A stretch of 47,402 nt of DNA. Source: Saccoglossus kowalevskii. Taxonomy: Eukaryota > Hemichordata > Enteropneusta > Harrimaniidae. The stretch is from positions 40,135 to 87,536 of the forward strand of contig NW_003148274.1 in assembly GCF_000003605.2 (NCBI RefSeq), read 5' to 3'. The notes beneath the pieces are model-generated. The model saw nothing but the letters and a program-made list of their open reading frames with translations, ran no database searches and was not told where the DNA came from. How positions within the stretch are numbered: the stretch's first letter is position 1; the number at the start of each line of letters is the position of its first letter. Shown here piece after piece: positions 16,331 through 34,677 of this stretch. The position numbers and the translations under genes are program-made.

Positions 16331-16859
16331 ATATAGTTTTAATATTTGACAAGATACTGTACATACAGCATTGTTATACAGTTTTTACCCAACTGGGAAG
16401 AACACCGCAGATAATGATGGAACTTTATTTCGGAAACAGTGTCGTCCCATTGCGCAATATCACATTGTATTTTCTGTAACGATTGTTCCATATCAACGAG
16501 CAAAACTCAACTATAGATGGCACTATATCTGTTCCTCTCTCATACCACCAATTTGTGATTGCAGATTGCTATATGATAATGATAAACAAAGTCGGCAACA
16601 TTATTCTAAAATGGGAAATCAACATGCCCGTAATCAACCGCATGAACGAAACGCACATGTTGGCCAGCTTAACCTCTGACACAACTGAGGTAAACTGTAA
16701 AACACCACGATTAGAACACACATATAGACACAGAATAAACCTACAGCCGATATGCAGTAAACAAAAGATCACATGCTTGCTCACCTATGATCCAAATGAT
16801 GAACGCCATCAAACGGAGCTCACCTGAAAACAACTAAAAAAATGGTTGTTGCAAGCTAT
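16331..16859. other. Open on both strands but unassigned
   Basis: A plus-strand frame of 114 codons (16483-16827) and overlapping frames on both strands have no recognisable domain. On the minus strand two GTGAG donors (near 16785 and 16822) and a TTTTACAG acceptor (near 16699) occur, so a minus-strand gene start is conceivable. I see no confirming exon. Confidence 0.3.
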
Positions 16860-17023
16860 TTAAAGCGGGGGAGTCGTCACCTGCCTATGCGTCAGACGGC
16901 CATAGCGTGTCATTGTTTACAAACATGCATCTACCCATGAGCCTTTGCGTTTTAGCGTGTGTTGTTATCATAGCTTGGGACTCAATTACCGCGCGTGCGC
17001 AGGTGACGACCCTCCCGCTTTAA
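16860..17023. mobile_element. TTAA-flanked inverted-repeat element (MITE-like)
   Basis: Bases 16864-16884 (AGCGGGGGAGTCGTCACCTG and one more) are an inverted copy of 16999-17019 (arm read in reverse: AGCGGGAGGGTCGTCACCTG), matching at 19 of 21 positions with weaker similarity further inward. Both arms are bordered by TTAA (16860-16863 and 17020-17023), and the symmetry continues a few bases outside (AGCTA on both sides). TTAA duplication is typical of piggyBac-type elements. The interior of about 110 bases has no transposase and contains the signal-peptide-like ORF. Alternatively it is a promoter hairpin. Confidence 0.55.
16925..17002 (+). CDS. Candidate signal-peptide exon 1 of the mosaic gene
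   Basis: An ATG at 16925 opens a 26-codon stretch that looks like a strong signal peptide: short start, hydrophobic core LCVLACVVIIAW, and an ARA-Q cleavage site of the A-x-A type. It ends at a splice donor (CAG|GTGACG) in phase 0. That phase fits the PAN exon if the acceptor before 19479 is used. Upstream lies a TATA-like TATTTAAA (16857-16864), about 60 bases before the ATG. Odd point: the whole exon lies inside a TTAA-flanked inverted repeat (16864-17019) and the donor lies in the right arm, so the exon is either element-derived or coincidental. Competing starts are at 18000 and 19430. No exon is visible between this one and the PAN exon 2.5 kb downstream. The frame, cleavage site and donor are seen; use as exon 1 is inferred. 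Confidence 0.4.
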
Positions 17024-17520
17024 ATTAGCTGATTAGTGGCATGAGACCGAAACGAAATAAGCTCGTTATATGGTTCTTGCATATAAGTTATTTTGGCAAG
17101 ACGTTTGTCACATTATAAACTAGTATGCATAATTAGATACCTGAAGTGCACACCATCTTTTAAATGGTATTGTTTTAAACAAGGAACTAGTTAGGTGTGA
17201 CAGGGGTTAGGTTGAGGACATATCGCCCAACTGTACTAATTATTATGCAAATTCCTTTCTGTTTCCTCGTGTTGAACACTGAAAGCAAATTCAAGTTAGT
17301 CTCACCCTGGCCAGATCACTATCCTGGAAGATTGTTCTTAGACTAACTCTTGCTGGGCTCTTGTGACGAGCTACGTTTTGCTTTTTGTATGGGGCGCTAG
17401 AGAAGTGGCTTTATCTCTAGTATAAGCCTGGGCCAGCTTTAGTAAATGCATGGAATTCGAAGATACTAACGGAATGAGTCACGACGCTATTGTTTTAGCT
17501 TTACCCTATGATGACTTGCC

Positions 17521-17540
17521 AATGTTTGTTCACAAACATT
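17521..17540. other. Short perfect palindrome
   Basis: AATGTTTGT and ACAAACATT face each other across two bases, a 9-base-pair hairpin in non-coding DNA. Confidence 0.7.
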
Positions 17541-17768
17541 GGTTCTTGTTAGCTCTTGTCACTTTCTTACAATGGGTTACGCTAATCTCGAGCATTCGGT
17601 AATATTTGGAGCGTGTTCGGTAGCAATAGACGAACTGCGCATGTACAAGATTGAAAATGAAGTCTAGTTGAAACGTTGTTCTTTCCGAAGATCTTGGCGA
17701 ATTTTTAATGAAAAATTGGCAAATATAACATCGATTGAAGAAAACTGATAAACTAGCATGAATCTTTT

Positions 17769-17984
17769 TGTAATTGTAATGGTGATGAGACGTAATCAAT
17801 GATTGTCTGTGACAATAATGATTGCATTATTCAATGGTACCATTGTCAGTGCGTGGGTTTGACGCCCGAAACTATTGAAATTTTCGACCAGCGGACATCG
17901 GCGAACACCACCAGAAAAGATAGTATCGAAAGAAGGGCATGCCTAGACACTTTCTCTGTGATAATATTGTTTAGGAGTTCTTAG
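17769..17984 (+). pseudogene. Broken PHD-finger fragment
   Basis: In one frame the sequence reads CNCNGDET, stop (TAA at 17793-17795), then SMIVCDNNDC, IIQWYHCQCVGLTPE. This reproduces the first six zinc ligands of a PHD finger: C-x-C, C-x4-C, H-x2-C, with the W before the His and the CVGL that follow in ING-like and transposon-associated PHD fingers. An in-frame stop separates the first two ligands from the rest, and no closing C-x2-C appears before the stop at 17984. PHD fingers normally bind histone tails. Here the fragment is isolated, with no neighbouring exon, and is probably a relic of a retrocopy or of a mobile element that carried a PHD finger. An ATG after the stop gives a 61-residue ORF that I do not consider a gene. 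Confidence 0.65.
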
Positions 17985-17999
17985 GAATATTTGTTGTAG

Positions 18000-18045
18000 A
18001 TGCTCGAAATTTTGTTCTTGTTACTATTGCTAATAATAAAAACAG
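18000..18045 (+). CDS. Alternative candidate signal-peptide exon
   Basis: An ATG at 18000 begins a very hydrophobic peptide (LEILFLLLLLIIKT) that runs into a strong donor, ACAG|GTGAAA, leaving one base (phase 1). Signal-peptide exons ending in phase 1 are common in shuffled extracellular genes. However, the PAN exon cannot be entered in phase 1, so an additional phase 1-to-0 or 1-to-2 exon would be required between 18045 and 19475, and I did not find one. It may be an alternative first exon that joins directly to a later phase 1 cassette, or a chance hydrophobic ORF in AT-rich DNA. Confidence 0.2.
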
Positions 18046-18180
18046 GTGAAATAGACAATAGTTTTAACTAGCTATTTGGGTACTTAGGGCCAACACATCA
18101 GAGATGTCTTGTTGTGTACATACAACATCACAGATTAAATGCAGTGAAGTCATTTGCATTCTTGAATTTATTAAGCAGTT

Positions 18181-18315
18181 AGTGCTACATTACTAGAAGC
18201 TACGTGTTGCCTCACTTGGAACTCCGTGCCACATTACTGGGAGTTACGTTACATTATTGGACGCTCTGTGATGTATTAGTCAAAGCTACAAGTTACATTA
18301 TGGGGAACTTTGTGT
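18181..18315. repeat. Degenerate tandem repeat, about 22-base unit
   Basis: About six imperfect units of the type GTTACATTATTGGGAGCTAC, each with a GTG or GTT start, a CATTA core and a GGAACT/GGAGTT/GAAGCT end. Units vary from 20 to 24 bases. Confidence 0.5.
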
Positions 18316-19478
18316 GTATAAATGTGTAAATTAAGGCTACCATATTGCATATTTGAGTGACTTTCTAGTTATAGCCTACATCAATTCTGAAATCACTTTT
18401 TCTGCGATTTTCTCGTACGTTGTGCATCTAATAGTCTAGTGATTCGCTAATAGACAGAATATCTTAATTCATACACAGATTATATTTAATCTATTTTGTT
18501 CCTTTTTGTGCGATTAAAGTTATTCTTTCCTCATTACTTAACTAATGCATTTGTGGTCTTACTGACTGGTAGTCTGTAGATGGGCTGATCACTAGGAAAC
18601 AAAGTCACAAGTGTTGGTATCTCGTATGCGTGGCAACGTTACATCAATTCTTGTCACGTCCGAGTTATTCTCTGAAACGCATGCACACATACATTCAGTA
18701 AAATGAACCACGTATTAAAAACATCAAAATTAATATCAACCGCGTCAATTTTATGTACACTTTTTTTCAAGAAAGCACATATTGCTCAGATACTGCATTG
18801 TTGTAATTTATAAAAAGAAACGATTGTTATTAAAATGTTGACATCTATAAACCAAATATTTAGTAATTATAATGGTCAAATTATTTTAATATTTTAGCAA
18901 TTTAATGTAGTTTACATACTAACAAATCATCATGTATCTAAACAGGAATGATTCTTTACGATATAATTAATGTTGTGATAGCAGGCTACACACTCCGTTG
19001 ATTTGAAACAATTATATATCTATGGCATTCAATTGTGATAAAATTAAATTACAGCAACACACTCTTGCATTAGTAAATAAATTATGCAAACAATTGAACC
19101 AGTAATTACTACTTACTGTAATGCGTTTCAATGGAGACTCATTAATAATTTAAGTTGTTTCAGCACGGACGTTTTTCTTTAACAAATTCCTTTGGCAATA
19201 GATGTTTTGATAACAATGCAGCATGTTTTTCAATATTGCACAATAATAAGTATTTAATAATTTCATGCAACGATTTATTTTGAAGTTATGCATAAGGTCA
19301 CGCTTCTACACATCTCTGACGGTGTGACCAATAGTGCATATAAGTTTAGTATTTACTAATATCAATAATTCATGACCCCATCACTCGAAATAACTACTTT
19401 ACTTAGCTTCAGTATATGTACATGTGAACATGTTGGTTTTTGTGTTGGCGTTACAAATAATGTTGACATTACAGCAAG

Positions 19479-19754
19479 TACGTCATTGCATCTACCGTTT
19501 TTGATGTACAACCATCACAAATCCACTATGATACTGCGGAAGGTGGAGTAGATGATAAAGTGTTCCTAGGCAACAGTCCACTGCTTTGCCTTGACGAGTG
19601 CCTTAAACTAGGGAAGGAATGTGAGGTTTTCAGTTATCATGCATTAGGAAGACTATGCTATATTCACAATAGGAACAAGGAATACCAACCCATCACACGA
19701 CGGGGATGGCTGTTTGCGTCCAAAACGAATATTCAGAATGTCACAAAAGAACAG
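19479..19754 (+). CDS. PAN/apple-domain exon
   Basis: This open exon encodes about 92 residues with a PAN/apple pattern: an aromatic N-terminal strand (VFDVQPSQIHY), then CLDEC, a third cysteine in KECEVFSYH and a fourth in GRLCYIHNRN, followed by a WLFASK strand. This is the four-cysteine core of PAN modules, which bind protein or carbohydrate in secreted proteins. An N-glycosylation sequon NVT lies near the end. The donor is CAG|GTATGA at 19755 in phase 0, matching the next exon. Two acceptors compete: ACAG before 19475 (phase 2) and CAAG before 19479 (phase 0). An in-frame TGA at 19464-19466 proves the exon cannot extend further 5' in this frame. The phase 0 acceptor matches the 16925 exon. 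A second signal-like ORF (ATG 19430) overlaps in another frame. Confidence 0.75.
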
Positions 19755-20095
19755 GTATGAGAGTTTAATTGTCTTATTTTTGGTGTGAATTTCTCATTAG
19801 TGGAGTGGAAGTTAATAAATGTACAAATAGGAACTTTAGAATCATTACTTATCGATAACTGTATTCCGTATGACAACAGTATTGAATGATCATTTACCAG
19901 ACTGGCATGTTGATATTTAAAGAATAACACAGTTGTTGCCTGCCCAAGTGATCGTGTTCATGAGCAAAATCTTGATGATTGCACAAGCAAAATCTTTTTC
20001 TTGAAATCTACTAGCCCAACTAATCGGGAATAAATGGCAACTAATATATTCCACATCAATAAAGTCTATGATATAATTCTGATTTTTTTAATCAG

Positions 20096-20231
20096 ATTGC
20101 AATAGAATTGTCTGCCTGTTCGACGAACCCGTGCATGGCACATACGTGGTGTGTAACAAATCATGTAGATTTCCAGTGCGTCTGTCGAGCTGAGGAACAC
20201 TACTTAGGCGACAGCTGTAGTAGCAACAATG
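20096..20231 (+). CDS. EGF-like domain exon
   Basis: The acceptor TTTTTTAATCAG precedes 20096 and the exon enters in phase 0, matching the PAN exon. It encodes one EGF-like module with all six cysteines in canonical spacing: C-x4-C-x5-C-x8-C-x-C-x10-C, in the segment from ACSTNPC to LGDSC. It lacks the D-x-D/N-E calcium motif before the first cysteine, so it is a non-calcium EGF. The donor is AATG|GTATTT, leaving phase 1. From here on the gene changes to phase 1 introns, the usual phase for shuffled extracellular modules. The next cassette is either 20914 (weak) or TSR1 at 23750, and both are entered in phase 1. Confidence 0.8.
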
Positions 20232-20913
20232 GTATTTCAGACATAAAATAAATACCGTATTTTATATTGCCTTGTATTAAATCTGTGTCTAGGTGATGTA
20301 TATTAGTTAATCTTTACAGTTAACCTTGGCCGCATAATTTCTGGAAACATACACCTAATATATAATTGTAAAAGCCCGTCCAGTATTTTTCAAATATTAT
20401 CATTTTAACCAGAGTTGTTAACATTTTACATAAACAATCATCAGCTTTAAAATGACTTAGAATTACGCTACATATATATTTTATATAAATGTATTTTTGT
20501 CTATTCAGAGTTCCAAGTATAATTTCCTTTTGAATTATTAGATATTCCAATTTAAATTGTTATTCCAATTTGAAATTGTAATTTTACATCATTAATATTT
20601 CTGAAACCGCTATAGATACAGATACATTTTTTTGAGGTGTTAGCAAGAACATTGACAATTTTTTTTAAATAAAACTTTAAATAGCTACACAACGACTGCT
20701 ACGCATGCGGATCTATAAAATTGATCGCACAGCAGCGACTATTAGTTTCTGGATTTTACACTAGAAGTTGAGCGCAGATGAGTGGATTCCGTTTTTTATA
20801 TAACTAGCACCGTGTGTCCCTTGTTTTATAATTGTTTAAAAAATAGAACGAGCATTGAACGACAATTAATGATCACATGTTTTATATGTCGAGCATCTAT
20901 TGGCCAACGTCAG

Positions 20914-21084
20914 ACGTATCCGACCCTGTCTATTTATTGCGAAGATTGGGTTTAAAGCGTTTCACATTCGAATGTTTACCCGCTACAAGTACATATTCTA
21001 AAACTGAATGTGTAGATTATGCAGATTGCATACCAGTATACATGGCATGTATAGATGGCTTCACAATGTCCTTAAACAAAACAT
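20914..21084 (+). CDS. Possible degenerate EGF-like cassette
   Basis: This open stretch is bounded by GTCAG|AC and ACAT|GTATAA. It is exactly 171 bases, phase 1 in and phase 1 out, so it could sit between the EGF and TSR1 exons without shifting frame. The C-terminal half reads ECVDYADC, then ACIDGFTMSLNKT with a last cysteine split at the donor. The C-x-x-G-F element is typical of EGF modules; the fourth cysteine expected just before it (C-x-C) appears replaced by Met. The acceptor has a poor pyrimidine tract. The ORF itself continues to a stop at 21104. Alternatively it is a decayed or unspliced pseudo-exon. Cysteines, frame and length are seen; exon use is inferred. Confidence 0.35.
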
Positions 21085-22596
21085 GTATAAGGAATATATT
21101 GTAAATAGTTTGTAATTGGGTTGTAAAAATGTAGTGAAAGGTCAAACAACGTTTATGTTGTTGGAGGTGATGTGGTACATGGCCATGTTTTTCCATGTTT
21201 TCAACTCGTTTCTCAAATACGCTTCACATACTTTGAACAATGTAATTATGATAGAATTTAGTACTCTATTTTTAGATATGTGCCATTAAATTAATTATTG
21301 TGTGATAAGAGTAAATATGATAGTGTAAGATACACATAATGCTGTGACATTGTCAATCTTTGGCGGCGACTGGTGAACCAATAACCTGACAACAGCCCGC
21401 CTGTGTTGATTGATGCTACAAGGGGAAATCACTGAACCCCTTAAAATATTGTGTTGAATGGTGGTTAAGAAAATTATATTGAAACAATGCTAAACAAAGA
21501 AGCTGCAAGACGTCATCATGTCAACTAGTAAGAATCCTTCTTTGCAGAAAACGGCATGTCGGGAAGGTCTTCAGTGAATAATATTACACCAATAACAAAA
21601 CGTGGCGTGGCCCACGTGGTATTGTTGCAAAGCGCGACGCTCAACTTTTACGTCACTACTGTACTAAAACAAACATATGAATAAGATACTGTGAAAGCTT
21701 CTATGTTAGCCCAAGGCAGGAAACCTTTTATCGAATACAAAAACGTGTATAAACGTGAATTGATAGAAGCGGATATATCCATTCGGTGTTACATTGGTTA
21801 TATACGGGCACATACACGTGTAAAAGTCATTGGATGCGTGAGAAAAATCTAATTTACACTCAGTTTTATGTCGACACATTGCACAAAGTTTATCCTATCT
21901 TTTTAACGCTCTGCCTTTCAAGTGCAACGATATGTGAAAAAGCAACATTAGACGATAAATTAACTAATTTTGCTTTTCTTAGTGTACATGATATATATAC
22001 TACGCCAATGTTATTAATTACCCCTTAAACGCTGAGATTGTGAAATCGGTTATACTTTAAGGCAAACCTTGTGCCCGACTATAATGCAGCTGAATATGCA
22101 TTTGAACATGTCAATTCAATATTCAATCAATCGTTTTACACGGCAAACTCTAAAAAGTAGAATTCCGGTCAGGAAATGATTTGCCCTTTACAGAGAGTTG
22201 GTGGCCAAAAACAAGGCTTATGGAATATTACATGGGGTTTTCAAAAGGATTGTGTACCTCATTTTGAGATTATCAGACCTTGATGAAAAGAAATACTAGA
22301 ACTGGTCTCTATTGACTAATATTAGGCACTTTGAGTTTGTTTTTTATCTTGTATTCAGTAAATGTTTACTTTATTGCAACTTTAGTGGATGGGCTCCGCA
22401 CGTCAGATGCCCAGGGGTGATTTTGTATGGAGTGTTTTAAGTATGTACCTGGGTTGGAACGGCAGAGAAAAATGAACATCTGTAAATGACAGCCAGTATT
22501 GCATGACAGTGATAGGCCAGCACAATAAGGATTGTCCATTCTTTCTTTATTTTTTAACTGTGTTATAGTCGTACATAATTGTAACGGAAGTGATCA

Positions 22597-22706
22597 AAGA
22601 GGCGGTGGCGTGAAATTTTGCATTGTGGGGGTCTGCTCACTATCCCTTGCGCATTTTCTTTTCGGGAGCGACGCACCCCCCCCCCCTCCCGGTGCCGCCG
22701 CCACTG
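22597..22706. mobile_element. hAT-like non-autonomous element, copy 2
   Basis: Left end AGAGGCGGTGGCGTG; right end, read inward on the minus strand, CAGTGGCGGCGGCACC. It shares with copy 1 the left-end GCGGTGGC plus ATTTTGCA, the GGGAGCGACGC block and the CCGCCACTG terminus. A run of about 12 C interrupts the right half. Possible diverged target duplication: GATCAAAG (22592-22599) and GATCATAA (22707-22714). It lies in the long intron before TSR1. Confidence 0.5.
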
Positions 22707-23749
22707 GATCATAATCATTGTTAAGTCTCAAGCATAAAGTGAGTTTACAATTTAATCCCTATGCGTGCTAAGTATATGGATTTTGATCGCGAATTATTTG
22801 TTTGTCACAGGATAAAGTGCATATTGTATTTTTCAAGTTGATGCTTACCTGCAATTTCAAAACTTAAACCAAAATAAATATATTTTTCGAAACCTCCGCA
22901 ACAATATTATATAGCCTAACAATCCCACATTGTTGTAGTAGCAATACTGTTTGTACTGTTTTCAACTATTGTATTATGCTGATCACAACAGCGTTGATGT
23001 TTGGTATATAAGTACCACAGTGCGATCACCGTCAAAGATGTTAATTTCATGATAGTATTTGCAGCACATTTGTTTGTGTAATTTCAATTTATTAAAAAAC
23101 GAAGTTATTAACCTACTGAATTGTTACAAAAGTCTTACTCAAATCCGGTAGTAATTGTGACAAATTAAAGCACCACGTACCGTTTCCTTCTACCGGGTTT
23201 CATTTCACGAAAAAACAGAATAATTGAATTAATTCTTTCATGTCATTCTACTATGAGTTCGGTTCTAAATTAGATAATTTGCTTGTTGTTAGTAATAAAT
23301 AGTAACTCAACATTTAGTAATAAATTCGACACATATAAAATATAACACTATTTAGTTTATTCTTTGATATGTTTTCATTTAATATATTCACAAAATTTGC
23401 AATAACACTTTATTAAATATAACAACATATCCTTAGTACTGAAAGATGAATATTTGTGTTTGTCACTATATTTATGGACTGTTGTGCTGTCCTGTTTCAT
23501 GAAAATCTAGGACTACTAGTGTCTCAATGTTTATCAACGGTGATACCCAAGTCGTAGTAATGGAACAGTTCAAACGGCATTATTTTTAACGTTTGATAAA
23601 TCATATAATTACTTATATTATATATGGGATCGTATATTCTGGGTCTTTTAAAACCGCAATTCAACATTTTCGTAGACGACATGTTAATGAGATGCTTATA
23701 GTTTTCCCCCATAACGCGTCTAATTTATCATGCTTCTTTTGTTTTCAAG

Positions 23750-23923
23750 TGGTACAGTCACACTGGGAAACATGGGAATCGTGGTCATACTGCACAGTTT
23801 CATGTGGAACTGAATATCAACATCGGTCACGATCATGTGATAAGACAATTGCTGTTCCTGATAATATTCACAGTGAAGGCCATAGTGTCGATTACAGACG
23901 ATGTAATCAGATGGCGTGCTCAG
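23750..23923 (+). CDS. Thrombospondin type 1 repeat exon (TSR1)
   Basis: The acceptor is excellent (a pyrimidine-rich run ending TTTTCAAG) and the donor is TCAG|GTATTG. The exon is phase 1-1 and 174 bases long. It encodes a TSR: WETWESWSYC (W-x-x-W-x-x-W, the C-mannosylation pattern), CTVSCG (matches the O-fucosylation consensus C-x-x-S/T-C-G), the RSRSC strand, then YRRCNQMAC. TSRs bind glycosaminoglycans and protein partners in the extracellular space. Odd point: five cysteines instead of six. The fourth canonical cysteine is missing, which leaves the third without its usual partner. Domain identity is clear; glycosylation is predicted from motifs only. Confidence 0.88.
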
Positions 23924-24212
23924 GTATTGTTTTTTATATTATCTATATACAATACGATGTATTTGGTATAGTGATAAGACCAGCAATACTGTGTATTGAA
24001 AATTGTAAATGCCAAAATGCTTTCAGTGGAGCCTATGACATAAGCATCGTAGGAAACAACTAATCAAATAACACAGATAATGCGTTTCCACAGATTTTTG
24101 AAGTGCACCATTAAAGTGTTCATTATGGCAATTACGATTAATTATTTGTAATGTTAGCTATAGTGAACCAAACATGTACGACTACATTAATATAGTTGAA
24201 TATTCTTTGTAG

Positions 24213-24362
24213 TGTGGTCGATGTGGAGTGAACTATCGTCGCCCCTGTCATTTGAGAGCACTGTGACCCGGAGTAGAGTATGCTTGAACGAAGGGATGGT
24301 GAATGTTGATAATGGTTGTATGGGTGAGACGGTGGAATCAAAAAATGTTGTCATACACTCAT
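24213..24362 (+). CDS. Degenerate thrombospondin type 1 repeat exon (TSR2)
   Basis: The exon has good splice sites (TCTTTGTAG| and T|GTGAGT), is phase 1-1 and 150 bases long, and directly follows TSR1 by about 290 bases. It keeps the TSR framework WSMWSE, then VTRSRVC and DNGCMGE, but the first, second and fifth canonical cysteines are absent. The sixth could be restored only if the next exon supplies the last two bases of a Cys codon (the exon ends with T). The retained pair corresponds to C3-C4, a known TSR disulfide, whereas both C1 and C5, which pair with each other, are gone together. The open frame over 49 codons argues for a maintained, structurally altered module rather than random decay. 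The CSVTCG-type fucosylation site is also gone. Confidence 0.7.
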
Positions 24363-24811
24363 GTGAGTAAAGGAAATGTCATTAAACTGCATAAAAATGT
24401 TCATAATGCATATTAAGAAAATATAGATATGGGTTAGTTGTAAATAAAGCGTCAAAAAGTTCAGCTACGGACACATAAACGTGTGTTGCCTCTATGTGCG
24501 TGTTGAGCTTAAGCATTTATCAAACAAATTCAAATTCCAAAAATGATGAATATAATATTGAGTCCATAAACGTGCAGTTGAAATAGCACATGTCCAATGT
24601 TAAATCTGTCTTAGTAGTCTGGAAATCATATATACTTTGCACTTACTTCCCAAATGTTATACCTACAACAATGTACCGCATTTAACAACATTCTTTTTTA
24701 TGCTAACTCTAGATTCGGTTCCAAGTAGAATAAACATGAATGAAAAATATATCGAATTATTCATTTCACAGGGTAACCTTACATAGTGACAGCAGAACAC
24801 AGACAATGCCA

Positions 24812-24859
24812 ACGTGGTATTCAGACAAAGTGGATTTCTTTATGTCACAGGTAATCGCC
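24812..24859 (+). CDS. Weak exon candidate between TSR2 and TSR3
   Basis: After several AG acceptors in a row (including GTGACAG before 24812), a short segment reads RQCQRGIQTKWISLC up to a donor CACAG|GTAATC. Read this way it enters in phase 1 but leaves in phase 2, and no following exon accepts phase 2. Read in another frame it leaves in phase 0, which would suit 25262 or 25533, but then it cannot be entered from TSR2. It may be the remnant of a further TSR-like or CCP-like module. I list it because the donor is good and the peptide has two cysteines and a tryptophan. Confidence 0.15.
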
Positions 24860-25261
24860 GTATACTCTTATTACACTTATCACTGACGATTAATTGGCAT
24901 TTGAATCGATACGGTTACGTAATGTTGATCTGAGTGAAATGTTTTCTTCTCGATACATAATTAATTTTAGCAAAGCAGATTTTAGCAAAGATAATTTGTC
25001 AGGACACGATATGAGTTTAATTACAGTCTATACATTAAATTCACCTGTTATATAGCATATCCAAGTCAACATTCTGTAGTGTCCAAAATCAAAAATATAT
25101 TTTTGAAGAAAAACAAAAATCGTACCTCAAAGTACTGTCTCTTGTAGCACTAAAGCACACAATGATCTGTCGTGACGTCATCTAGACTCGAATATGCATT
25201 CCAAGAAAGAATATTCCTTTGGTTTATCATCGCGTTTGTAGTTTTATTTTCTTCTTTCAAG

Positions 25262-25465
25262 GGAAGTAGACAATCTGACATTTGCGATGAGTGTATGAAT
25301 ATTTGTAGGTCTAATCATGTAATAGTTATTTCTCATTTTATGGATTATGGCGAGTACTGTAGAGTACGTCAGTGCTGTGTGTATGCTTATTCTCCATACA
25401 GTAATGATACAGAAATTTATTATAATAAATGTACATTTAGATACTGGTATGTCCAACTCAAGTAA
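25262..25465 (+). CDS. Cysteine-rich exon candidate with its own stop
   Basis: A near-ideal acceptor, TTTTCTTCTTTCAAG, precedes 25262 and opens a phase 0 frame that runs to a TAA at 25463-25465. The peptide has seven cysteines in a compact pattern, DICDECMNIC followed by GEYCRVRQCC and a last one in YYNKC, unlike EGF, TSR or CCP spacing. AATAAA-type signals occur about 150 bases after the stop, so it could be an alternative terminal exon giving a shorter soluble isoform. The frame also extends upstream through a hydrophobic run (FLWFIIAFVVLF) starting from GTG at 25172, so a tiny secreted peptide is another reading. I do not recognise the cysteine pattern. It is not needed for the main chain, since TSR2 joins TSR3 in phase 1. 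Confidence 0.3.
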   Translation, partial: GSRQSDICDECMNICRSNHVIVISHFMDYGEYCRVRQCCVYAYSPYSNDTEIYYNKCTFRYWYVQLK

Positions 25466-25532
25466 TTTCCCCGTGATGCAGGCTGTAATAAGTGGCCTAA
25501 ATTGTAATGGCGATTAAGAATCTTTTTTTCAG

Positions 25533-25599
25533 TGTTCACGACAAAAACTTGCAATCAGCTCGCCGTATGATCATTATGTAACGGTCACGTTTAAAGTAG
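25533..25599 (+). CDS. Short exon candidate resembling the first half of a CCP
   Basis: The acceptor is strong (TCTTTTTTTCAG) and the donor is GTAG|GTATGT, with phase 0 in and phase 1 out. The peptide starts CSRQKLAISS and ends YVTVTFKV. Its V-x-F strand resembles the middle of a sushi/CCP module, with the second cysteine replaced by Val. If TSR3 were skipped, its phase 1 end would join 26359, which encodes the second half of a CCP. No upstream exon with a convincing phase 0 donor was found except possibly 25262 or the 24.8 kb segment, so inclusion is uncertain. Confidence 0.25.
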
Positions 25600-25818
25600 G
25601 TATGTCTCATTGACGCAAATAAACGCCCTTTTCATTCTTTAAATAAATACATCAGCCATATTTCTTTTTTTTTTAGTTTTGCTGTATTTAGTTCAGACAA
25701 ATCGTGTTATATTGCCAATAGATACAAAATACGATAATAAATCATTAATCACGTTTAATGAGGAAATGTGTTCGATTTGTACTGACGTCATCACAGCTTC
25801 ACGTTTTAATTTTTACAG

Positions 25819-25995
25819 ATAATAGTTTTGGTGAATGGAACGCTTGGAGTTCCTGTTCTGTAACGTGTGGATGGGGATTCCAAACGAGGTCACGACCTTG
25901 TGCTAATTCCTCTAACCTTGCCTATGTGGAATATAATGGTTGTTCACCAGGAGACTTACATGAACGGAAAGGATGCGTGCGTGTCAAGGCATGTG
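25819..25995 (+). CDS. Thrombospondin type 1 repeat exon (TSR3), canonical
   Basis: Acceptor AATTTTTACAG and donor TGTG|GTGAGC; phase 1-1; 177 bases, 59 codon equivalents. This is a textbook TSR: EWNAWSSC (W-x-x-W, C-mannosylation pattern), CSVTCGWG (O-fucosylation consensus), the QTRSRPC strand, then NGC, KGC and KAC. All six cysteines are present, so C1-C5, C2-C6 and C3-C4 can form. It is the best preserved of the three TSRs. The phase 1 flanks allow it to be skipped without a frameshift. Its join from TSR2 gives a Tyr codon and its join to the half-CCP exon gives Ala, with no stop created. Confidence 0.92.
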
Positions 25996-26101
25996 GTGAG
26001 CACAATCTGAATACTTTGTCATTCCGCATTGATTTTACTTAGATAACAATTAAATAAAGACAATATGTTTACATAACATATCCCCTTAATCTCCTTACGA
26101 T

Positions 26102-26104
<3 letters not shown>

Positions 26105-26152
<48 letters not shown>
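26105..26152. repeat. (TA)n microsatellite
   Basis: A pure run of about 24 TA dinucleotides in the intron between TSR3 and the half-CCP exon. Confidence 0.95.
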
Positions 26153-26155
<3 letters not shown>

Positions 26156-26358
26156 CTCAAACCATTTATTGTTACAAGCAATGTATTATGTGTGTGTATG
26201 TGGATAACATTTGGAAATGCATTTAGTAAATTCACATACTAATGCCACTCACAACTCTCCTTATTTATTTTGAGAATGTTCAATACCAATCATCGATAAC
26301 GGTTTTTCTGAGCACAATTTAACTTAACACGTTATGTGTTATCCTGGGTTTTCCTTAG

Positions 26359-26418
26359 CTGGGAATGATGTAATTAAATGTATCAATGGCAAATGGACTT
26401 CACTGCCGACATGTGAAG
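26359..26418 (+). CDS. C-terminal half of a CCP/sushi domain
   Basis: A 60-base phase 1-1 exon with acceptor TTTTCCTTAG and donor GAAG|GTGGGA. The peptide GNDVIKCINGKWTSLPTC matches the second half of a CCP module: the Gly-Asn turn, the third cysteine, G-x-W, the proline and the fourth cysteine. CCP modules mediate protein binding in complement-like and adhesion proteins. The first half, with cysteines one and two, is not present between TSR3 and this exon. Either it lies in an unrecognised exon (25533 is a weak candidate), or the half module is retained as is, leaving two cysteines that may pair with each other. Confidence 0.75.
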
Positions 26419-26790
26419 GTGGGACAGAAATGATTTATTGGTTAAGGATGATGACACATTTTCCCTATTCCCAAAACAGATCTGTGTAAAAATATAGATT
26501 GTTGAAAAATTACAAAATAATATAAAATTATAGGCTTAACACTGACAAATATCTTTAGTGGCGGTGGAGTGTGTAGTAATTAACTGTAGATTGAATTTAA
26601 TTACTGTTATAAATTATCCTTGTAGCCTTGGGGTTACGCTCTGATACTGATAGTCATACCAAAGTTTAGTCAATTTGATGGAACTTTTGAATATGATCAT
26701 TGATTAGTTAAGAAGTTGTTAACTTCAATTTTAGCAGTTCATACAAATGAGTTTGAATATGTAGTACATGTCATATGTGATTACTATGTT

Positions 26791-26850
26791 AATATGTGTT
26801 AATATGTGTTAATATATGTTAATATATGTTAATATATGTTAATATATGTT
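26791..26850. repeat. 10-base tandem array, six copies
   Basis: Two copies of AATATGTGTT followed by four copies of AATATATGTT, and then AATATATTTACAG, the acceptor of the EGF exon at 26864. The array replaces the usual pyrimidine-rich and branch-point region of this 3' splice site. Confidence 0.95.
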
Positions 26851-26863
26851 AATATATTTACAG

Positions 26864-26980
26864 CTATTGACGAATGTCTGATTGATAATGGTGGTTGTAT
26901 TGATCCGTGCACTAATGGCATTGGTAATTTTACTTGTAGCTGTTTTAATGGACGAGTTATGAGACCAGGGGGATGCTATT
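26864..26980 (+). CDS. EGF-like domain exon with hydroxylation motif
   Basis: Acceptor ATATATTTACAG and donor CTATT|GTAAGT; phase 1-1; 117 bases. It encodes an EGF-CA type module: IDECLIDNGGC, then DPC, FTCSC and a final RPGGC, six cysteines in all. The segment CTNGIGNFTCSC satisfies the Asp/Asn beta-hydroxylation consensus C-x-D/N-x4-F/Y-x-C-x-C. The first calcium ligand position is Ala (from the split codon) rather than Asp or Asn, so calcium affinity may be weakened. An N-glycosylation sequon NFT lies in the same strand. The acceptor sits 13 bases after a six-copy 10-base tandem array. Confidence 0.9.
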
Positions 26981-28099
26981 GTAAGTACCAGAAATCGATT
27001 TTATAATTGCATAATTTTACCTGAACTGCTCGTACATATTTTTTGAGGTACTCATTGTGTCGTGTCAAAACAATCTTGTATGTTTTATATGGAGCATTCA
27101 CATACACAAATATATACATAATCTGCTGACAATAAACTTAATGAATACTAAATTTAATCCATAAAGTAAGGTGTGACATAATGTTTCAAGTTAATGACCA
27201 ACTGTACCTTTTTGTTTTACATACTGGTATATATGTACCTATTTGACAGATGTGTTTTAAATGATAATATTATATGCGACCATCACAAGTAAACGCTTTC
27301 TCGCCATTGCTTTGTCCATTCATGACTTTTTTTGTGAAACTAGTAGTGTGGATCTATAGAATTGTAACATCGTGGTAACTATTTATTGTTAAAACAAATT
27401 TTATTTCATATTATTATTAATAAAACACTAAAATTTAACAAGAAATGATATTTAAAATGAGACAATTATGGTAATCTGTTTAAGCTGTTCATTTATTTCA
27501 TTCTTCATTGCAACGTTTGATTTTGCTTGCACTTGTAAACGATTGCAGAAATTTATTCTCCGCAATAGTCCGACAATAATTATTTACTTGGCAATTGAAC
27601 ATATGAGCATCCACTTGCATAAATATTGCTGCAAGTAGATAGAACTTCAGGGTTAGGTTTACTGTACGGAATTGGGTACATCTACCAGTGGCGTTTTTCT
27701 GTAAATAATTGTACGACAACGCCTTCTCCTTCAAGCGGCTCATGTATATTAGTGAGACATTCCAGCTAAATTTTCCAAGCACTGTCCTCAATTAACATTA
27801 GAACATTAACTCACTACTTGAAATAAAAATAATCACTACCATTCGCTGGTTTGATGTACACAAGACTGCACACAATTACATGCAGTATTGAGATGGGCAC
27901 CCACAGAATTCACACTGGACAGGGGGGGTCTTTCACTGCTAGAATAGGGTAGACAAGGCAATAGTACTGGAAATGGAATACACACACCAATATATAAAAT
28001 TAAAGCTTCTGGCTTTAATACCTTTCAAAATAATTTCAAGAAAAAAAGCACAGAAATGTACAATAAATAAATTCACCGAAACGGGGGATTGCCTAGGGA

Positions 28100-28560
28100 A
28101 GTGTGCATCGGTAATAGGATGTATAAATAGATGACAGTCAATGGCTTCTGCGACGCAATGACGAAGAAATACAGGAGTCTTGCTTGCAGAGGAACTGATG
28201 ATAGCAGGAGATCGCAGAGCAGTTCATACAAGTTTCACAAAACAATGATTGAAGCATGTATCACTTGTATCACTCGCAGCAGCAACAACAAGTGCCCAGT
28301 CCAGCCTATATATAGGCATAAATGGCCAAGATTCAGGTACATCACCAGGGTTTGCACACGAGCCAACCAGATTGTGGTCTTCCTAGCAGCTGTCTCACAT
28401 ACGCAAGTCCGTTGATCGTAAATACCTTTGTTATGTAAATCATAAGCCCACCTGGTAGATTCCAATATTCTATCCAGAGTTGTAAACAAATATGACCTGT
28501 CAATCACCTGTATGACAGTTATCACACTACGATGCACACCGTTTCTTTCCATGATTTCAT
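28100..28560. other. Intron segment with long overlapping ORFs on both strands, possible element relic
   Basis: Within the intron between the EGF and lectin exons, this segment is less AT-rich than its surroundings and is open on both strands for about 95-105 codons. It is preceded by polyadenylation-like CAATAAATAAA. No motif of a transposase or reverse transcriptase is visible. A decayed mobile element is the simplest reading. Confidence 0.3.
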
Positions 28561-28703
28561 TTGCAGGATTTGAGATATTATGACATAGAAATTAATAACT
28601 AATAAATAAAGTAATCAAACAGTAATTATTGCAGACCAGGTTTTCACTGATAATTTATTCTTGTTGCATCATTATTAAAATAAAAAATTGCTATACTTTC
28701 TAG

Positions 28704-28977
28704 ATGTGGGACCCACTGTAGGATGTTCAAGATATTTAATGTCATCCAAAGGTGCATCATGGCAAGACGCAAAGACAAAGTGTACTGAATTAAATGGGAC
28801 ACTGGCAATCTTTAACTCTGAAGCAAAGGGCTCCGCAATAAACGCATACATCTCGCCTGTTCAGACAGGTGAAAACTGGATTGGTATGCAGAAAGTTTTA
28901 GGCCAGTATCAATGGATAGATGGTACACCAGATAGCATTACCGGGCATTGGTGGCCTTATTACCCTAAAGGCAAGGA
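28704..28977 (+). CDS. C-type lectin-like domain, N-terminal exon
   Basis: Acceptor ACTTTCTAG, entered in phase 1. The peptide contains CTLD landmarks in order: VGCSRYL, the helix WQDAKTKC with the first core cysteine, NGTLAIFNS, then NWIGM, QWIDGTPD and a GHWWPYYP loop. The end is uncertain. A donor GA|GTGTGT after 28977 leaves phase 2 and joins the 29884 exon to give K-E-Y-C, matching the usual E-x-C of CTLDs. A second phase 2 donor after 28989 is also possible. Unspliced, the frame stops at 29003. The calcium-site loop lacks EPN or QPD, so classical mannose- or galactose-type binding is not predicted; the ligand could be a protein or a non-canonical glycan. Confidence 0.85.
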
Positions 28978-29146
28978 GTGTGTCTGTGGGTCAGCGAACC
29001 AATGAAAAAAGTAATATAGTATCTATTAAATTACTCCAGACAGACACATAGACACATGTCCGGGATATAAACTTATATAAATGTAATACTTATTATCAGT
29101 GAAACCATGACATTACGTCACCGTGTTTATTATGCTTATTTACCAG

Positions 29147-29190
29147 TGAAGTGTGGATTGGCGTCACCCACAGACAAGATCGCAATGATG
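29147..29190 (+). pseudogene. Orphan CTLD middle-exon fragment
   Basis: Acceptor TTTACCAG and donor GATG|GTAGTA bound a 44-base segment reading EVWIGVTHRQDRND. This is the conserved WIG strand of a C-type lectin domain, already present in the 28704 exon. It would be entered in phase 2 but leaves in phase 1, so it cannot be inserted between 28704 and 29884 without breaking the frame. A second short piece, YDGNPVYRS at 29294-29320, looks like the following W-x-D-G-x-P strand. Together they look like remnants of another lectin domain copy within this intron. An alternative exon is possible but not supported by phase. Confidence 0.45.
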
Positions 29191-29883
29191 GTAGTACTGA
29201 TTTGACGTTCTGAGAAATTACTCTCTGTCAACCATACATTAAATTATTTATTATTTTTGTTGTTATATCATAAACCTGTCTTTTTAAATTAGATATGATG
29301 GTAATCCTGTGTATAGATCTCAAATTAGACATACAAAATAGCAGTACCCTTATACATGCTACAGTAACTTCCCATAAATTGTCAGTGTTAATTACTCCTT
29401 ACATATACAGTTGGGAAATTCCACATACCAATGTCATGTATGGTCGACTAGACATGGACATTCACTTGCTTTCATCGTGACTACACTTTGCTATATAATT
29501 CACGGTAATTTATAGACCATGGCTAGATTTTTTAAATGTATATACAGCTTTACGGTAAACGAGCCATTTAAGTGAAGAGCCGTACAAGCGCACCCAAATT
29601 CATAACATATAATCCAAGTCACAGTTTGCATTTTTTCGAACACTCCGTGGAATACTGGTAGTTGTTGTCTCGACATATGTGTAAACATACAATTCTGTAT
29701 CAAAATATCAAACATATCATTACAAGTTAAATTGAATTGATATTTCGTCTTACTCACTGATGTAAAGAATTATAACTATGACAATAGCATTAGCTTCCTT
29801 TGTGTCAATTGTCTTTCCCTACAGAAACGGGAATGTACTTGAAGATAATAGTAACTAACTATTTTATTCGTTCCACTTGCTAG

Positions 29884-29957
29884 ATACTGCAAACAAATGA
29901 TTCCATTTTGGGATGCATTATGTGGCTTACAATACCATTACCTGTGTGAAAAAAACG
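29884..29957 (+). CDS. C-type lectin-like domain, C-terminal exon
   Basis: Acceptor CACTTGCTAG, entered in phase 2, with donor AACG|GTAAAT leaving phase 1. The peptide YCKQMIPFWDALC then YLCEKN is the closing part of a CTLD: a second-core cysteine, the W-x-D/N-x-x-C motif (here FWDALC) and the terminal C-E-K. Joined to 28704-28977 it gives a domain with all four core cysteines. The phase 2 intron inside the lectin domain is the only non-phase 1 junction in the distal part of the gene. The phase 1 donor implies at least one more exon, unless the intron is retained and the frame ends shortly downstream. Confidence 0.85.
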
Positions 29958-30484
29958 GTAAATATCAATCATTAAAAATCATCACTCCTTTTTGGGAAGT
30001 AATAATTCACTTCAACAATTATTTGATATAAATAACTCTCTAACATAGGGTAATTCTTATTTGCCCTGGTAAATGATTTTAATTTATCATGGCCTTAATT
30101 TGCTTGGCAAAATAATTACTGCAAAGTAAGACAGTACAGTCGGAGTGCATACTTTGGAATATCCTCGTAATAACCGTATTATTGTACATTTGTGTGGGGT
30201 CCGGTCAAACCATGGGAGCAGTCATGTTTGTTTTTTATTATTAGAAGACTCTTACGCGCGTAATCGTTCCATACTTGGAATTCGCGTTTCCTAATATGGT
30301 TTGATAAAAATACCCAGTAGCGCAAAACTTATGGCACCCTGTAACTTATGGCGTTACGGTGAAAACAATACTCATGCAAAATGAATGCATGTGTTAATGT
30401 TCTAAATCTAATAATCGAATTTATTTAATTTCCATTCCTTTTTTACTTACAATATTATATCAAAACGTTGTTTGTTGCTACAAG

Positions 30485-30729
30485 AAGGTGGAGACAACAG
30501 TTTTCTGGCCGATAATGATGTGAAAGTTACAAATATTATTTATAACATTTCAAATCATGGTAATTTTAAGGTGGAATCAATTATATTCAAGAAACATGAG
30601 CTTGGGTGTGATCTACTTGATATTCTGTTATTATCTCTTTATTTTAACAGTATGTTAAGCCAAGAAGTGCAGACAAAATCGTGGTTTGTATATAATGAAG
30701 ACGATTTCAGCCAATATGGTCGTGTGTGA
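30485..30729 (+). CDS. Candidate 3' terminal exon
   Basis: A phase 1 entry after GCTACAAG continues an open frame of about 80 codons to a TGA at 30727-30729. The peptide begins GGDNSFLADNDVK, contains a single cysteine and a moderately hydrophobic run (LLDILLLSLYF), and ends acidic (YNEDDFSQYGRV). It matches no domain I know. An AATAAA at 30995-31000 lies about 270 bases beyond the stop. The acceptor is mediocre: its pyrimidine tract is interrupted. The phase and position after the lectin domain suit a terminal exon, but a chance ORF is equally possible. Confidence 0.25.
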
Positions 30730-30994
30730 AAAAATGATGACATTACCTATTACTTGACTTAAATAATACTAAAACACCCGGTAACGTGACAGTGTACCAC
30801 ACACGCAAACATCACCAACTATCCCAGTTCAGGGGATTTATTGTAACATTTTTGAATTTTGTTAGAATTCTTTTTAATTTTACATACTATTATTTTGATC
30901 TATTATGGTTACTTTAAGTTGTCAACCAGCATCAGCAGTTATCACTCTGTTTAATGATTGGTGGATTTTGTGTATTTTGCATATATTTATGCAA

Positions 30995-31000
30995 AATAAA
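30995..31000 (+). promoter_or_regulatory. Candidate polyadenylation signal AATAAA
   Basis: A canonical AATAAA lies about 270 bases after the candidate stop at 30729 and is followed by T-rich sequence (TGTTTGTATAATTTATTTG). AATAAA is frequent by chance in AT-rich DNA, so this depends on the terminal exon being right. Confidence 0.25.
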
Positions 31001-34000
31001 TGTTTGTATAATTTATTTGAACGAGTTCCTTGCATTTGTGTGTGAACTGCTCTATGTAATAATACAATATAACACTTATTGTACATTGTGAGTCACCACT
31101 GAATATAGTAAAGTTATGCCGGGTCTCGTGGTAGCCGTAACCCACACAAGGGGATGAAAGTACGTTTTTGGTGGTTTATATTTTGGAACCTGTTGACAAT
31201 ATTTGAAAAACATCCTAACTACATCTAATTTACCAAAGATGGGCACATTATTAATGACTGGGAAGCAGAGATTTTAGTTTATACTAAAAAAAATTTTGCT
31301 CTTGGACGGCAAATAATAAATGAAAGACATATACACCAATTCAATAAACTAGTCGCCAGATGCAAGCAGCAGTAGTATAAGCCATTCCCATGATGCAATA
31401 TTCCCAAACTTATATCGCCAAACTTATATAGTCAATTTCGACTGGGCAGAGAACCCCTTCTTACCAGTTTATTGCTCGACAATACATCTGATGATCCGAG
31501 GATTATCCATTGCAAGCAGTATTTTCCATGTGACACCCATGCTTTTTGGGTTGTCTTGGCAACCATGGTCTATAATTATTACACATACAAAGTAATTATG
31601 AATTGTTTCAATATGCTGAACACATCCATTTCGTTAAACCTCATGGTAAACACGGTAGTTTAGTTATGAACTTTGTTATAACTGACTTGGGTTGCTAGGA
31701 AGTGCTGATAGTTAATTAAAGCATCCTGTTGACAATTCCTATAATTCAATCACATCGACACCGGAAATTGTCATCAATGTTTTGACAGCGGTAGTCTTTC
31801 ACTGATGTGGAAATAACAAACCCTAACCATTGTCGTATGGGGAAAGTCCAAGAAGACAAAACAGATGACTGATAACGATTAAGAGTGAGTACATCCTGTT
31901 CCACGTGTGGTGCCTGCAATATATCCTTCAAACAGTCAAATGGTTTCTGTGTGAAACCTGAGTTCTACATTACACTTATTGCTTATTGTATCTGCAAAAG
32001 AATTTGCCGTTTGTATGTTCATTGCAGTATAAAACTAATAATTGTGAAACAAAGTAAAGAATCTTCCAAAGCGCCAGATTTCCCTTTTATTTACATCCAC
32101 ATATTGAACGTGGAAATAAAATAAACAAACCATTGTGCGAATGAAACGGTGGTAGATTTGCAAATTAGAGGGGTTAAACAGGAAGTAACATGTGCTAACC
32201 TCTGATTAGTCAAGTATCTTAATTCGATGCCGATATGATAAATGTATAGAATCCAGGGAATTATACTTTTCAACACACGTTAAACCATATTTTTCTTTCA
32301 ATGAAACACATGTATTAGCATTTAAATCGTCTTTCACTTGCAAAGTTTACACATATGACTGAAGTGTAATTTGCAATATTGTCGAACAATATAGTAAATG
32401 TGTTTCTTATCTGAAGTTGATAACGTTGAACATTAACACATTATGTCTGCGTTGTCAAATATAGAGGGCGACATTGGCTTTAAAATAACATAACTGTGTC
32501 CAATGCATAATTTTCAAAATCTGGTCTGAACGCTTTGGTATATATGCTGATACACTGTTTAACCTCATGTACGCAGCTGGAGGTAAATTCCGGTGTATGT
32601 AAATACCGGTATGCTGTGATATACCCATAACAAGAATCAGAAGAACGCCTCCACCTATTGTGAAACGTCAGTTTACCTATAAATAGTAACATTCCGTAAA
32701 TATGAGGTATACATTGCTACAACTAAATATCTTAAACTTCACGATGCACGATCATGAAAATCCAGAAACATGTGTCCATTATATAACTCAAGTCTGTAAA
32801 TAAAAACAACAGTTAAGGTGAAAATGTGTACACTGATTTTCGTAGGGTAGTATTTTAATGATTGCCTTTAAAATATTGAATCTCAGCAGTCTCAGCAACT
32901 CTTGTAGAACTCCAGAGTTTCCTGATTGACTCATTGTTATAACAGCAGTGCATGTCGTTATTTGGATCTTTATTACACAATACTGCTAAATACACCTTGA
33001 ATAAGGCCGCCGTCACCCACTGTATCTCAGTAATTGACGGACAGTAGGTGTTAAGTTGTCTCTTTAACGGTTAGTTAAATACACTATGCCACGAAACATT
33101 AGTCTTTGTACTTCAAAACTGCCGTCAAAACACAATACACTTGGCCGAATCGCGACTTACCGAGGGGTCACTGTACTTATTGATTCTATGTGTGAGTGTA
33201 GCTGTAGATGCATATTGATACGGCACAGTAAATAAATAAATAATATTAAATCCTACGATTCAGTTGTTGGTAGTGAGTTTGCAAAAATGTAATATTAAAT
33301 CAGAGTTGTTTTTAATACTATACTAACATTTTAAACAAGTCCGATGCGAACATTTCTCAAGACAATGGCGCAAAAAACTGCTTTAATGTGCTACGAATTG
33401 TCAATAAACATATAAAATTCTGTCTATTATTATTACATTGGTAAACATAGGCAGTTGACGCAATACACCGTATGTTATTAGATTTGACTTATATTCGTAA
33501 AGTCAACACATGTGCGGTATACAAATAAAATCAGACTTCATAAAACGGATTTTGTTATGCTGCTTGACAATAAATTCAGAGCACGTCCACATTTTTTATT
33601 AAATAAATACTCTTTGGAAATGAGTGAAATCATATCAGCAGGACAGATGACGGGGCCCAATGAAATAAAACATACATTTACAACTCACAATTGGGTTTAC
33701 ATACACTTGACATCACCCGTACTACATTACTGTGAATTACTTGTTCAATTTAGAGATGAATAATACTTCTCAGTTTGTTTTGCTTTGTTTTCAACCTAGA
33801 AAATTGAATTTCAAGCAACTTTCACTGACCTTAAATATTCCAGCAAAAAATATAGTTAGTGTTTGCATCTGCTACCATCGACCAGTATACTAGACTGTTG
33901 TGTTGTGTCTGTTTATCGAAGTACGAGAAAGTTCCCCGTATTGACGAGATGGAAAACAGAATTAACCATTTAATTGTAACATCAGTATCTTTGGCTTTGC

Positions 34001-34297
34001 GTGTGATGCTGTGCTTTTATTTTCCGTGATCCTATTTTATCCTATTATTTATGGGTATGATATTTTGATTTCACATGTAAAACATTCGATTTTATTATAA
34101 TCGGTATACAGCCAAACACATTACAGAGATGTAATTGACAATTAAAGTTAAATAGTCAACATTTTACCAGCATTTTAAAGATGCAATATGGACGAGAATT
34201 GACAATTTTTTTCACTCTGTAATAAAGTGAATTAATCACACATAATCGTAGCTTACCTATTCAATCTAAGAATCATGTATTCAAAATGCCGATATCT
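31001..34297. other. No gene identified
   Basis: AT-rich intergenic DNA downstream of the mosaic gene. ORFs are short and without motifs. No element ends were recognised. Confidence 0.55.
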
Positions 34298-34344
34298 TCA
34301 ATCATGGCAACATGACAGCGCTGTTAAAAGTTTGTTTGTAAACA

Positions 34345-34480
34345 TAGTTTGAATCCGCCGCCATTCCTGGAGACAAGGGTCACGTGATTCCGAACGCAGA
34401 AAATGATGTCGTCGTAGCGGTAATGATATGTCATCTAATGGCGGAGTCCGCCGCTTCCAGAACTGCAGCGAATTCCTGTT
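34345..34480. promoter_or_regulatory. CpG-rich promoter-like patch
   Basis: In otherwise AT-rich DNA this stretch has clustered CpG, an E-box CACGTG (34381-34386), a YY1-like GCCGCCATT (34357-34365) and a mirrored AATGGCGG (34438-34445). Open frames on both strands here match nothing I know. A promoter or a GC-rich repeat are both possible. Confidence 0.3.
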
Positions 34481-34677
34481 GGGACTGTTCGTGGCAACAT
34501 TCTTTAAAACTGTAAAATGGACACTAAAAAGTTTCACAAAGAAATGCTTTTACACAGGTGTAAACACCGCTAACATCGGCAAACACGTCTGGCACAATAC
34601 AGGTGCCATCGGTGCTGATTCACTGTTATTCCCGGTGTGAAATGTATAAAGGGACACAAATATGAAATGAACAATAG

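Follow-up and report, generated by a model that had tools for sequence, protein, structure and literature searches.

The window analysed here is a 47,402-nucleotide stretch of Saccoglossus kowalevskii DNA (contig NW_003148274.1, here C3850, positions 40135-87536), which carries between its positions 19479 and 29957 a series of nine plus-strand exons for a mosaic of extracellular modules. These comprise a PAN domain, epidermal growth factor-like modules (EGF), thrombospondin type 1 repeats (TSR), a complement control protein or sushi module (CCP) and a C-type lectin-like domain (CTLD). In a preliminary description they had been read as a mosaic protein of the order PAN-EGF-TSR x3-half CCP-EGF-CTLD at 19479 to 29957. 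Comparisons were made within the same genome (572 Mb, 4830 contigs) as well as with profile libraries, solved structures and the literature. With moderate confidence, the locus is interpreted as a reduced and probably now disabled copy from a small family of mosaic proteins, presumably secreted, whose full design would include an additional scavenger receptor cysteine-rich (SRCR) domain.

The series starts with a PAN exon (19479..19754, donor phase 0) and an EGF1 exon (20096..20231, phase 0 in and 1 out). These are followed by three TSR exons of phase 1/1 at 23750..23923 (TSR1), 24213..24362 (TSR2) and 25819..25995 (TSR3), a 60-nucleotide piece formerly noted as half a CCP (26359..26418), a calcium-binding-like EGF2 exon (26864..26980, phase 1/1), and two CTLD exons at 28704..28989 (phase 1/2) and 29884..29957 (phase 2/1). 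The donor of the first CTLD exon reads GTCAGC versus GTAAGC in three paralogues. A possible terminal exon with a stop codon, J (30485..30729, with AATAAA at 30995), is unmatched in the paralogues and is left tentative, because the tail differs in both paralogues with open frames. That the exons join in frame through matching phases is borne out, with GT and AG sites at the junctions and 483 codons free of stops; if the tentative exons S and J are included, chance alone would produce such a stop-free frame with p about 1e-17, given a measured random stop rate of 0.064. Splice sites were ranked by a simple score as percentile of all GT or AG in the window. The nine donors fall between the 86th and the 99.8th percentile, and the weakest acceptor is that of the PAN exon at 19479 (40th percentile), a score that is expected if this site is no acceptor.

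The claim that each exon is a recognisable module applies, with Pfam profiles (cut-offs in bits: PAN_1 21.4, TSP_1 21.6, Lectin_C 22.6, SRCR 26.1, FXa_inhibition 33.4), to TSR1, TSR3, the CTLD and, barely, PAN, but not to TSR2, and the EGF modules remain below cut-off. The PAN exon alone contains the four core cysteines and reaches 21.6 bits with PAN_1, just above cut-off; in a longer construct the score is 19.3, below cut-off, and the paralogous PAN domains score 21.7 and 17.5. As single exons, TSR1 and TSR3 match TSP_1 with 29.2 and 33.8 bits, as is characteristic of a TSP1 repeat protein, and the CTLD matches Lectin_C with 46.2 bits over positions 3-107 of 107 (42.3 bits for the CTLD on contig C4306). 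EGF1 (14.5 bits, EGF_3) and EGF2 (28.8 bits, FXa_inhibition) have the right cysteine pattern. TSR3 has six cysteines; in TSR1 one cysteine found in all five paralogues described below is replaced by Ser. TSR2, for which the single-exon scan gave no TSP_1 match, has only two cysteines. It was rejected as a decay product of the window copy, given that these two cysteines are shared by four of the five paralogues, and that the fifth, on C4171, has a third. In the Pfam scan of the whole spliced protein, only TSR and EGF-type families appeared, and PAN_1, Lectin_C and Sushi were not listed. A plus-strand whole-frame scan of 19761-29702 gave TSP_1, Sushi (18.8 bits, below cut-off), FXa_inhibition and Lectin_C (35.9 bits); the corresponding scans of 9601-19471 and 29800-39792 gave no domain match.

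The spliced protein was searched against the genome; with the best 88 of 222 candidates scored, 57 matches were obtained, among them the window's own. Overlapping loci were merged and compared exon by exon. Five loci share several exons in the same order, and runs of N, either assembly gaps or masked sequence, adjoin four of them (other N in the merged locus sequences are unfetched stretches). The locus on C1657 comprises the signal peptide, PAN, EGF1, TSR1, TSR2 and both SRCR exons, the latter open, and has a stop in TSR1. That on C4171 extends from the signal peptide to TSR2, after which an N run follows. Two copies, one on C4306 and one on the minus strand of C2266 (54-59 kb), each cover TSR1 to CTLD with nine exons and no stops in 484 and 480 codons, respectively, and both have an N run upstream. 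A second copy on C2266 (76-80 kb, plus strand) is damaged: it shows TSR1, TSR2, a broken EGF2 and the CTLD, with stops in TSR1 and EGF2 and an N run after the second CTLD exon. The two C2266 copies face away from each other. A further locus, on C4657, matches TSR1 and TSR2 only, with 38 and 44% identity.

Both open copies have the order TSR-TSR-SRCR-TSR-CCP-EGF-CTLD, with GT and AG at each junction and all junctions in phase 1 except for phase 2 inside the CTLD. A search with the signal peptide, PAN and EGF1 found these together on C1657, C3850 and C4171, with a weak PAN match on C1210, and in all three loci with strong PAN matches (the window and those on C1657 and C4171) PAN, EGF1, TSR1 and TSR2 are consecutive. 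When the overlapping paralogues are combined with the window, the design of the family would be signal peptide-PAN-EGF-TSR-TSR (cysteine-poor)-SRCR-TSR-CCP-EGF-CTLD; all modules from PAN to CTLD are seen only in the window, in damaged form.

These arrangements, together with the fact that the phases of EGF1 and TSR1 join, favour one gene, as formerly proposed, over two separate genes for PAN-EGF and TSR-CTLD. The two-gene alternative would draw on the readable 3.8 and 3.9 kb upstream of TSR1 on C4306 and the C2266 minus strand, where neither EGF1 nor PAN was found before N is reached, and on C1657, where no TSR3 was found in the 3.7 kb from SRCR to the contig end. The intron between EGF1 and TSR1 measures 3.5 kb in the window, 3.6 kb on C1657 and 2.4 kb on C4171; in the two open copies PAN-EGF may be absent, or the intron may be longer. 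With PAN-EGF1 directly preceding TSR1-TSR2 in three loci, a division into two genes appears highly improbable.

The start of the gene does not lie at 19479. Homologous to the starts of the paralogues, an ATG with the signal-peptide-like stretch MLVFVLALQIMLTLQQ is found at 19430..19478 on the plus strand, in a frame that does not match that of PAN. In both paralogues with a signal peptide (C1657 and C4171) the latter directly continues into PAN within one exon and in frame, and the distance from ATG to PAN is 54 nucleotides. In the window it is 49 nucleotides, and the start is therefore out of frame with everything downstream. Judged by eye, an in-frame signal peptide, as required for a secreted protein, is present in both paralogues and is absent from the window as assembled, for which an intact protein is not supported. 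An intron in the 5' untranslated part would be consistent with the upstream acceptor at 19413, which ranks at the 97.5th percentile. A connection of the signal peptide at 19430 with PAN via a T run near 19500 was rejected: the alignment with the paralogues covers PAN from its first residue on, with the gap in front of it.

At this point it has to be considered that the frame offset might be an assembly error or the null allele of one individual, in an SRCR-less gene that is otherwise functional. The N runs beside four of the five paralogues and the stop-free kept exons would be in line with this view, but a difference of five nucleotides is an unusual type of error, and no second, near-identical copy was seen in the protein searches, which covered the best candidates only and included no DNA search for haplotypes. 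This explanation is considered distinctly unlikely.

Between TSR2 and TSR3, two stretches conserved between the window and its paralogues represent the remnant of an SRCR domain. Its first exon (24713..24850, plus strand) contains the stops TAG TGA at 24784-24789 and has lost a conserved cysteine; the second (25447..25599, plus strand) contains TAA at 25515-25517, has lost the last cysteine, and its acceptor AG is changed to TG. On C4306 and the C2266 minus strand, the domain scores 49.4-57.5 bits, which places SRCR in the family design; the remnant in the window reaches 21.2 bits, below cut-off, when the stops are read as X, and was not revealed by the plus-strand whole-frame scan of 19761-29702. 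An exon-like piece at 24772, initially without a Pfam match and dismissed as chance, was later recognised as part of SRCR. The CCP is damaged likewise. The full exon at 26275..26418 (plus strand, 144 nucleotides, 28.7 bits) has a TAA at 26325-26327 in its 5' part and follows a weak GAG acceptor, while in both open copies, the two that show it, the exon is 159 nucleotides long, follows CAG and is free of stops. A sushi module with four cysteines in one open exon is thus interrupted in the window by the in-frame TAA. The half CCP is not supported as a normal module, and was also rejected as a new one; it is the 3' part of this full exon, situated behind an internal in-frame TTAG acceptor. The module order given in the preliminary description is accordingly right for PAN, EGF, TSR and CTLD, but it missed SRCR and mistook the CCP.

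Between the window and C4306, the number of nonsynonymous substitutions per site (dN) is 0.09 in the 3' part of the CCP exon versus 0.31 in the 5' part (p 0.026). This value belongs to the arguments for a gene that is alive as earlier drawn, in which SRCR would be spliced out, the internal acceptor would halve the CCP and an upstream exon would supply an in-frame signal peptide. The 483 stop-free codons speak for such a gene, as do the window-specific changes in TSR1 and TSR2 (nine nonsynonymous, nine synonymous), which look as under constraint. A phase-0 signal-peptide-like open reading frame with a good donor at 16925-17002, the sole candidate of this type in that search, could be the upstream exon. 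It lies, however, within an inverted-repeat element resembling a miniature inverted-repeat transposable element (16858..17025, 34-nucleotide arms) and mimics a signal-peptide exon, with its 5' splice site in a repeat arm. Among the fetched loci, further copies of the element occur at L004 2797-2962 and L014 7296-7454 (89% and 79% alike), and these two do not share the first ATG of the window's reading frame. Being repeat-borne, the reading frame was rejected as the signal peptide in the main interpretation, all the more as signal peptide and PAN form one exon in both paralogues; moreover, the PAN acceptor required for this splicing ranks only at the 40th percentile. A living gene of this kind is regarded as unlikely. 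Very improbable is its elaborated version, according to which the copy drops SRCR, halves the CCP and takes its signal peptide from the repeat element 2.5 kb upstream, as a member of a family with a constant stalk and a CTLD head that diversifies faster than the adjacent introns.

For the disabled copy favoured here, the distribution of lesions and substitution rates suggests an order of events. Stops, counted from translations, occur at three places, all within the 125 codons that make up SRCR and the 5' part of the CCP, and none occurs in the other 483 codons (p 0.009 for clustering, with a grouping chosen after the stops had been seen). Rates were estimated with the simple NG86 method on small codon counts. 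In the comparison of the window with C4306, the two SRCR exons have dN values of 0.44 and 0.43, against a joint 0.17 for EGF2, TSR1-3 and the 3' part of the CCP (Fisher p 6e-8; 4e-9 with C2266). The CTLD was excluded from this contrast, because it changes fast across the family, too. Between the open copies, SRCR is conserved, with 13 of 242 nonsynonymous sites different (p 0.14 versus TSR1-3 and EGF2). SRCR was thus probably lost first in the window copy, with the rest kept under selection, as far as can be judged from the sequences.

An old pseudogene in neutral decay in every part would equally have several lesions of different kinds, and the pooled ratio of dN to synonymous substitutions per synonymous site (dS) is not strongly different between released and kept parts. 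Yet the introns are retained, which speaks against a processed pseudogene as well, dN/dS is about 0.3 in TSR1-3, the CCP 3' part and EGF2, and the distribution of stops disfavours this explanation. In simulated neutral decay (300 runs), 483 codons stayed free of stops in 19% of the runs when 0.02 substitutions per site were applied, but in 1% with 0.05. Uniform decay is hardly credible.

Several observations weigh against the scenario of a reduced, disabled copy. The dN/dS of the SRCR remnant is 0.47-0.75 and thus not near 1, and its dS is raised as well (0.86-0.92 versus 0.53, p 0.06). The pooled dN/dS of the released parts, 0.37 with C4306 and 0.57 with C2266, is not clearly above that of the kept parts, which is 0.41 with the CTLD and 0.30-0.32 without it; the dN of the CTLD (0.44-0.82) is as high as that of SRCR. 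In sushi modules, cysteines pair 1-3 and 2-4, and a half CCP alone would therefore have two cysteines without their usual partners, which argues against a sound shorter protein. The ancestral spacing of 54 nucleotides is deduced from two paralogous signal peptides, a small number, and the five-nucleotide difference could itself be an assembly error or specific to one haplotype. No locus has an intact gene from end to end, and to this is added that no EGF1 was found in the readable sequence upstream of TSR1 in the open copies.

The reduced and disabled copy is nevertheless preferred, and the following course is proposed. Since from TSR1 onwards each module starts in phase 1, SRCR or CCP could be removed without a break of the frame. 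SRCR would have been freed from selection first, with stops acquired and cysteines and an acceptor lost. The 5' part of the CCP would have decayed likewise, probably through use of the internal acceptor, by which the 3' part was retained. The other modules stayed under constraint, and therefore the gene would most likely have continued to yield a working, shortened protein for a while. Eventually, the five-nucleotide difference in signal-peptide length would have cut off the start codon, leaving the copy dead, or null in the haplotype. As for the start lesion, it is most likely of recent date or bypassed, unless it represents an allele or an assembly error. In this account the exons, phases, paralogues, lesions and rates are observed, and splicing, secretion, the order of loss, binding and an immune use are conclusions drawn.

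The CTLD differs from the remaining modules in its rate of change. Between the copies on C4306 and the C2266 minus strand, identity is 71.8% and 61.5% in the two CTLD exons, 78.5-80.4% in three surrounding stretches and 90.6-97.7% in the other seven exons. Pooled, 103 of 342 CTLD sites differ; the flanks differ at 160 of 775 sites (p 0.0007), the remaining exons at 69 of 1092. The excess over the flanks holds for nonsynonymous (76 of 267, p 0.011) and also for synonymous sites (28 of 69, p 0.0004), so that diversifying selection and an exchange or conversion of CTLD exons are equally possible. The two pairings with the damaged plus-strand copy of C2266 lend partial support: the CTLD exons show 76.3 and 69.0% identity versus 85.6% for the intron between them in one pair, and 67.1 and 56.9% versus 68.1% in the other, but the intron before the first CTLD exon (53-54%) and the stretch after the second (67.4%, one pair) are both below the first CTLD exon. 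These comparisons suggest that the CTLD is a variable recognition head.

The canonical calcium-dependent C-type lectins carry the motifs EPN or QPD plus WND. These motifs are absent from all four CTLDs (window, C4306 and both C2266 copies), and usual calcium-dependent sugar binding is therefore unlikely; the ligands are probably proteins, or are bound independently of calcium. Among solved structures, the best sequence matches of the CTLD are the CTLDs of phospholipase A2 and mannose receptors and of CLEC/CD209 proteins. TSR1 and TSR3 retain, as read by eye, WxxW and CxxS/TCG, the motifs that direct C-mannosylation and O-fucosylation. Modules of these kinds typically occur in secreted proteins of recognition and of the matrix. 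With a conserved stalk of TSR, SRCR, CCP and EGF modules and a fast-changing CTLD, we infer that the family binds foreign or otherwise changing ligands; an immune or other recognition role would fit this constitution and the coexistence of open and damaged members. Of the proposed glycan- or matrix-recognition protein, the recognition role is thus in agreement with the fast-changing CTLD, but not a canonical calcium-dependent lectin.

Other CTLD-encoding sequences were encountered in the genome. On C4110 (37.8 kb), CTLD matches on opposite strands form pairs that recur about every 8 kb, five on the minus and four on the plus strand with near-equal scores, and C4613:481026-481202 has a Lectin_C match within an open frame of 5929 amino acids, possibly a giant single-exon protein. 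Elsewhere in the window, the minus strand of 36300-36520 reads GVRQGCILSPSLFNLF, which from its motif we take to resemble a reverse transcriptase of a non-LTR retrotransposon. A weak F-box match (18.3 bits, cut-off 20.5) is located at about 2720-2797 on the plus strand. The mitochondrial COX1 of the genome has an open frame with TGA read as Trp, and Lys for AAA suits a conserved site, so that an echinoderm or tunicate origin seems unlikely.

Summarizing, the family unites PAN, TSR, SRCR, CCP, EGF and CTLD modules in an order that is absent from the literature found, and the window copy offers a case of module-by-module reduction, in which phase-1 exons allow the loss of SRCR and half of the CCP while the others stay open. 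CTLD exons that outpace the adjacent DNA, as in the two open copies, would mark the likely recognition surface. The locus further calls for caution, since a domain order taken from a single locus may be that of a damaged copy.

Among well-known proteins, the selectins and lecticans have a CTLD beside EGF and CCP modules, and properdin and thrombospondin have TSR stalks, all in different orders; to our knowledge, none of these combines PAN or SRCR with TSR and CTLD. In the literature found, mostly judged from listings, the module order of the present family is not described.

Comparable mosaics are known from several invertebrates. The bivalve mosaic CTLD-containing proteins (CTLDcps) are likewise lineage-specific combinations of CTLDs with sushi, scavenger-receptor and other domains; they are mostly uncharacterised, with immune roles suspected (PMC10140915). 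The main text of that report contains "thrombospondin" and "EGF" zero times and "pan" twice, once as "pan-genome", and the order of the present family was not seen in this text (PMC10140915). In Mnemiopsis, SRCR and CTLD are novelly combined with CCP, EGF and other domains, including one SRCR-CTLD protein, and the relevant passages do not describe a PAN-EGF-TSR-SRCR-CCP-EGF-CTLD order (PMC11797021). Elysia sea slugs have newly arranged TSP1 domains and many CTLD proteins with other domains; unlike in the present family, CTLD and TSP1 are listed under separate proteins in the relevant passages (PMC7663992). From these accounts, new combinations of CTLD, SRCR and TSR modules are common in invertebrates, and the Saccoglossus family would be of a known kind, albeit in an order that may be new.

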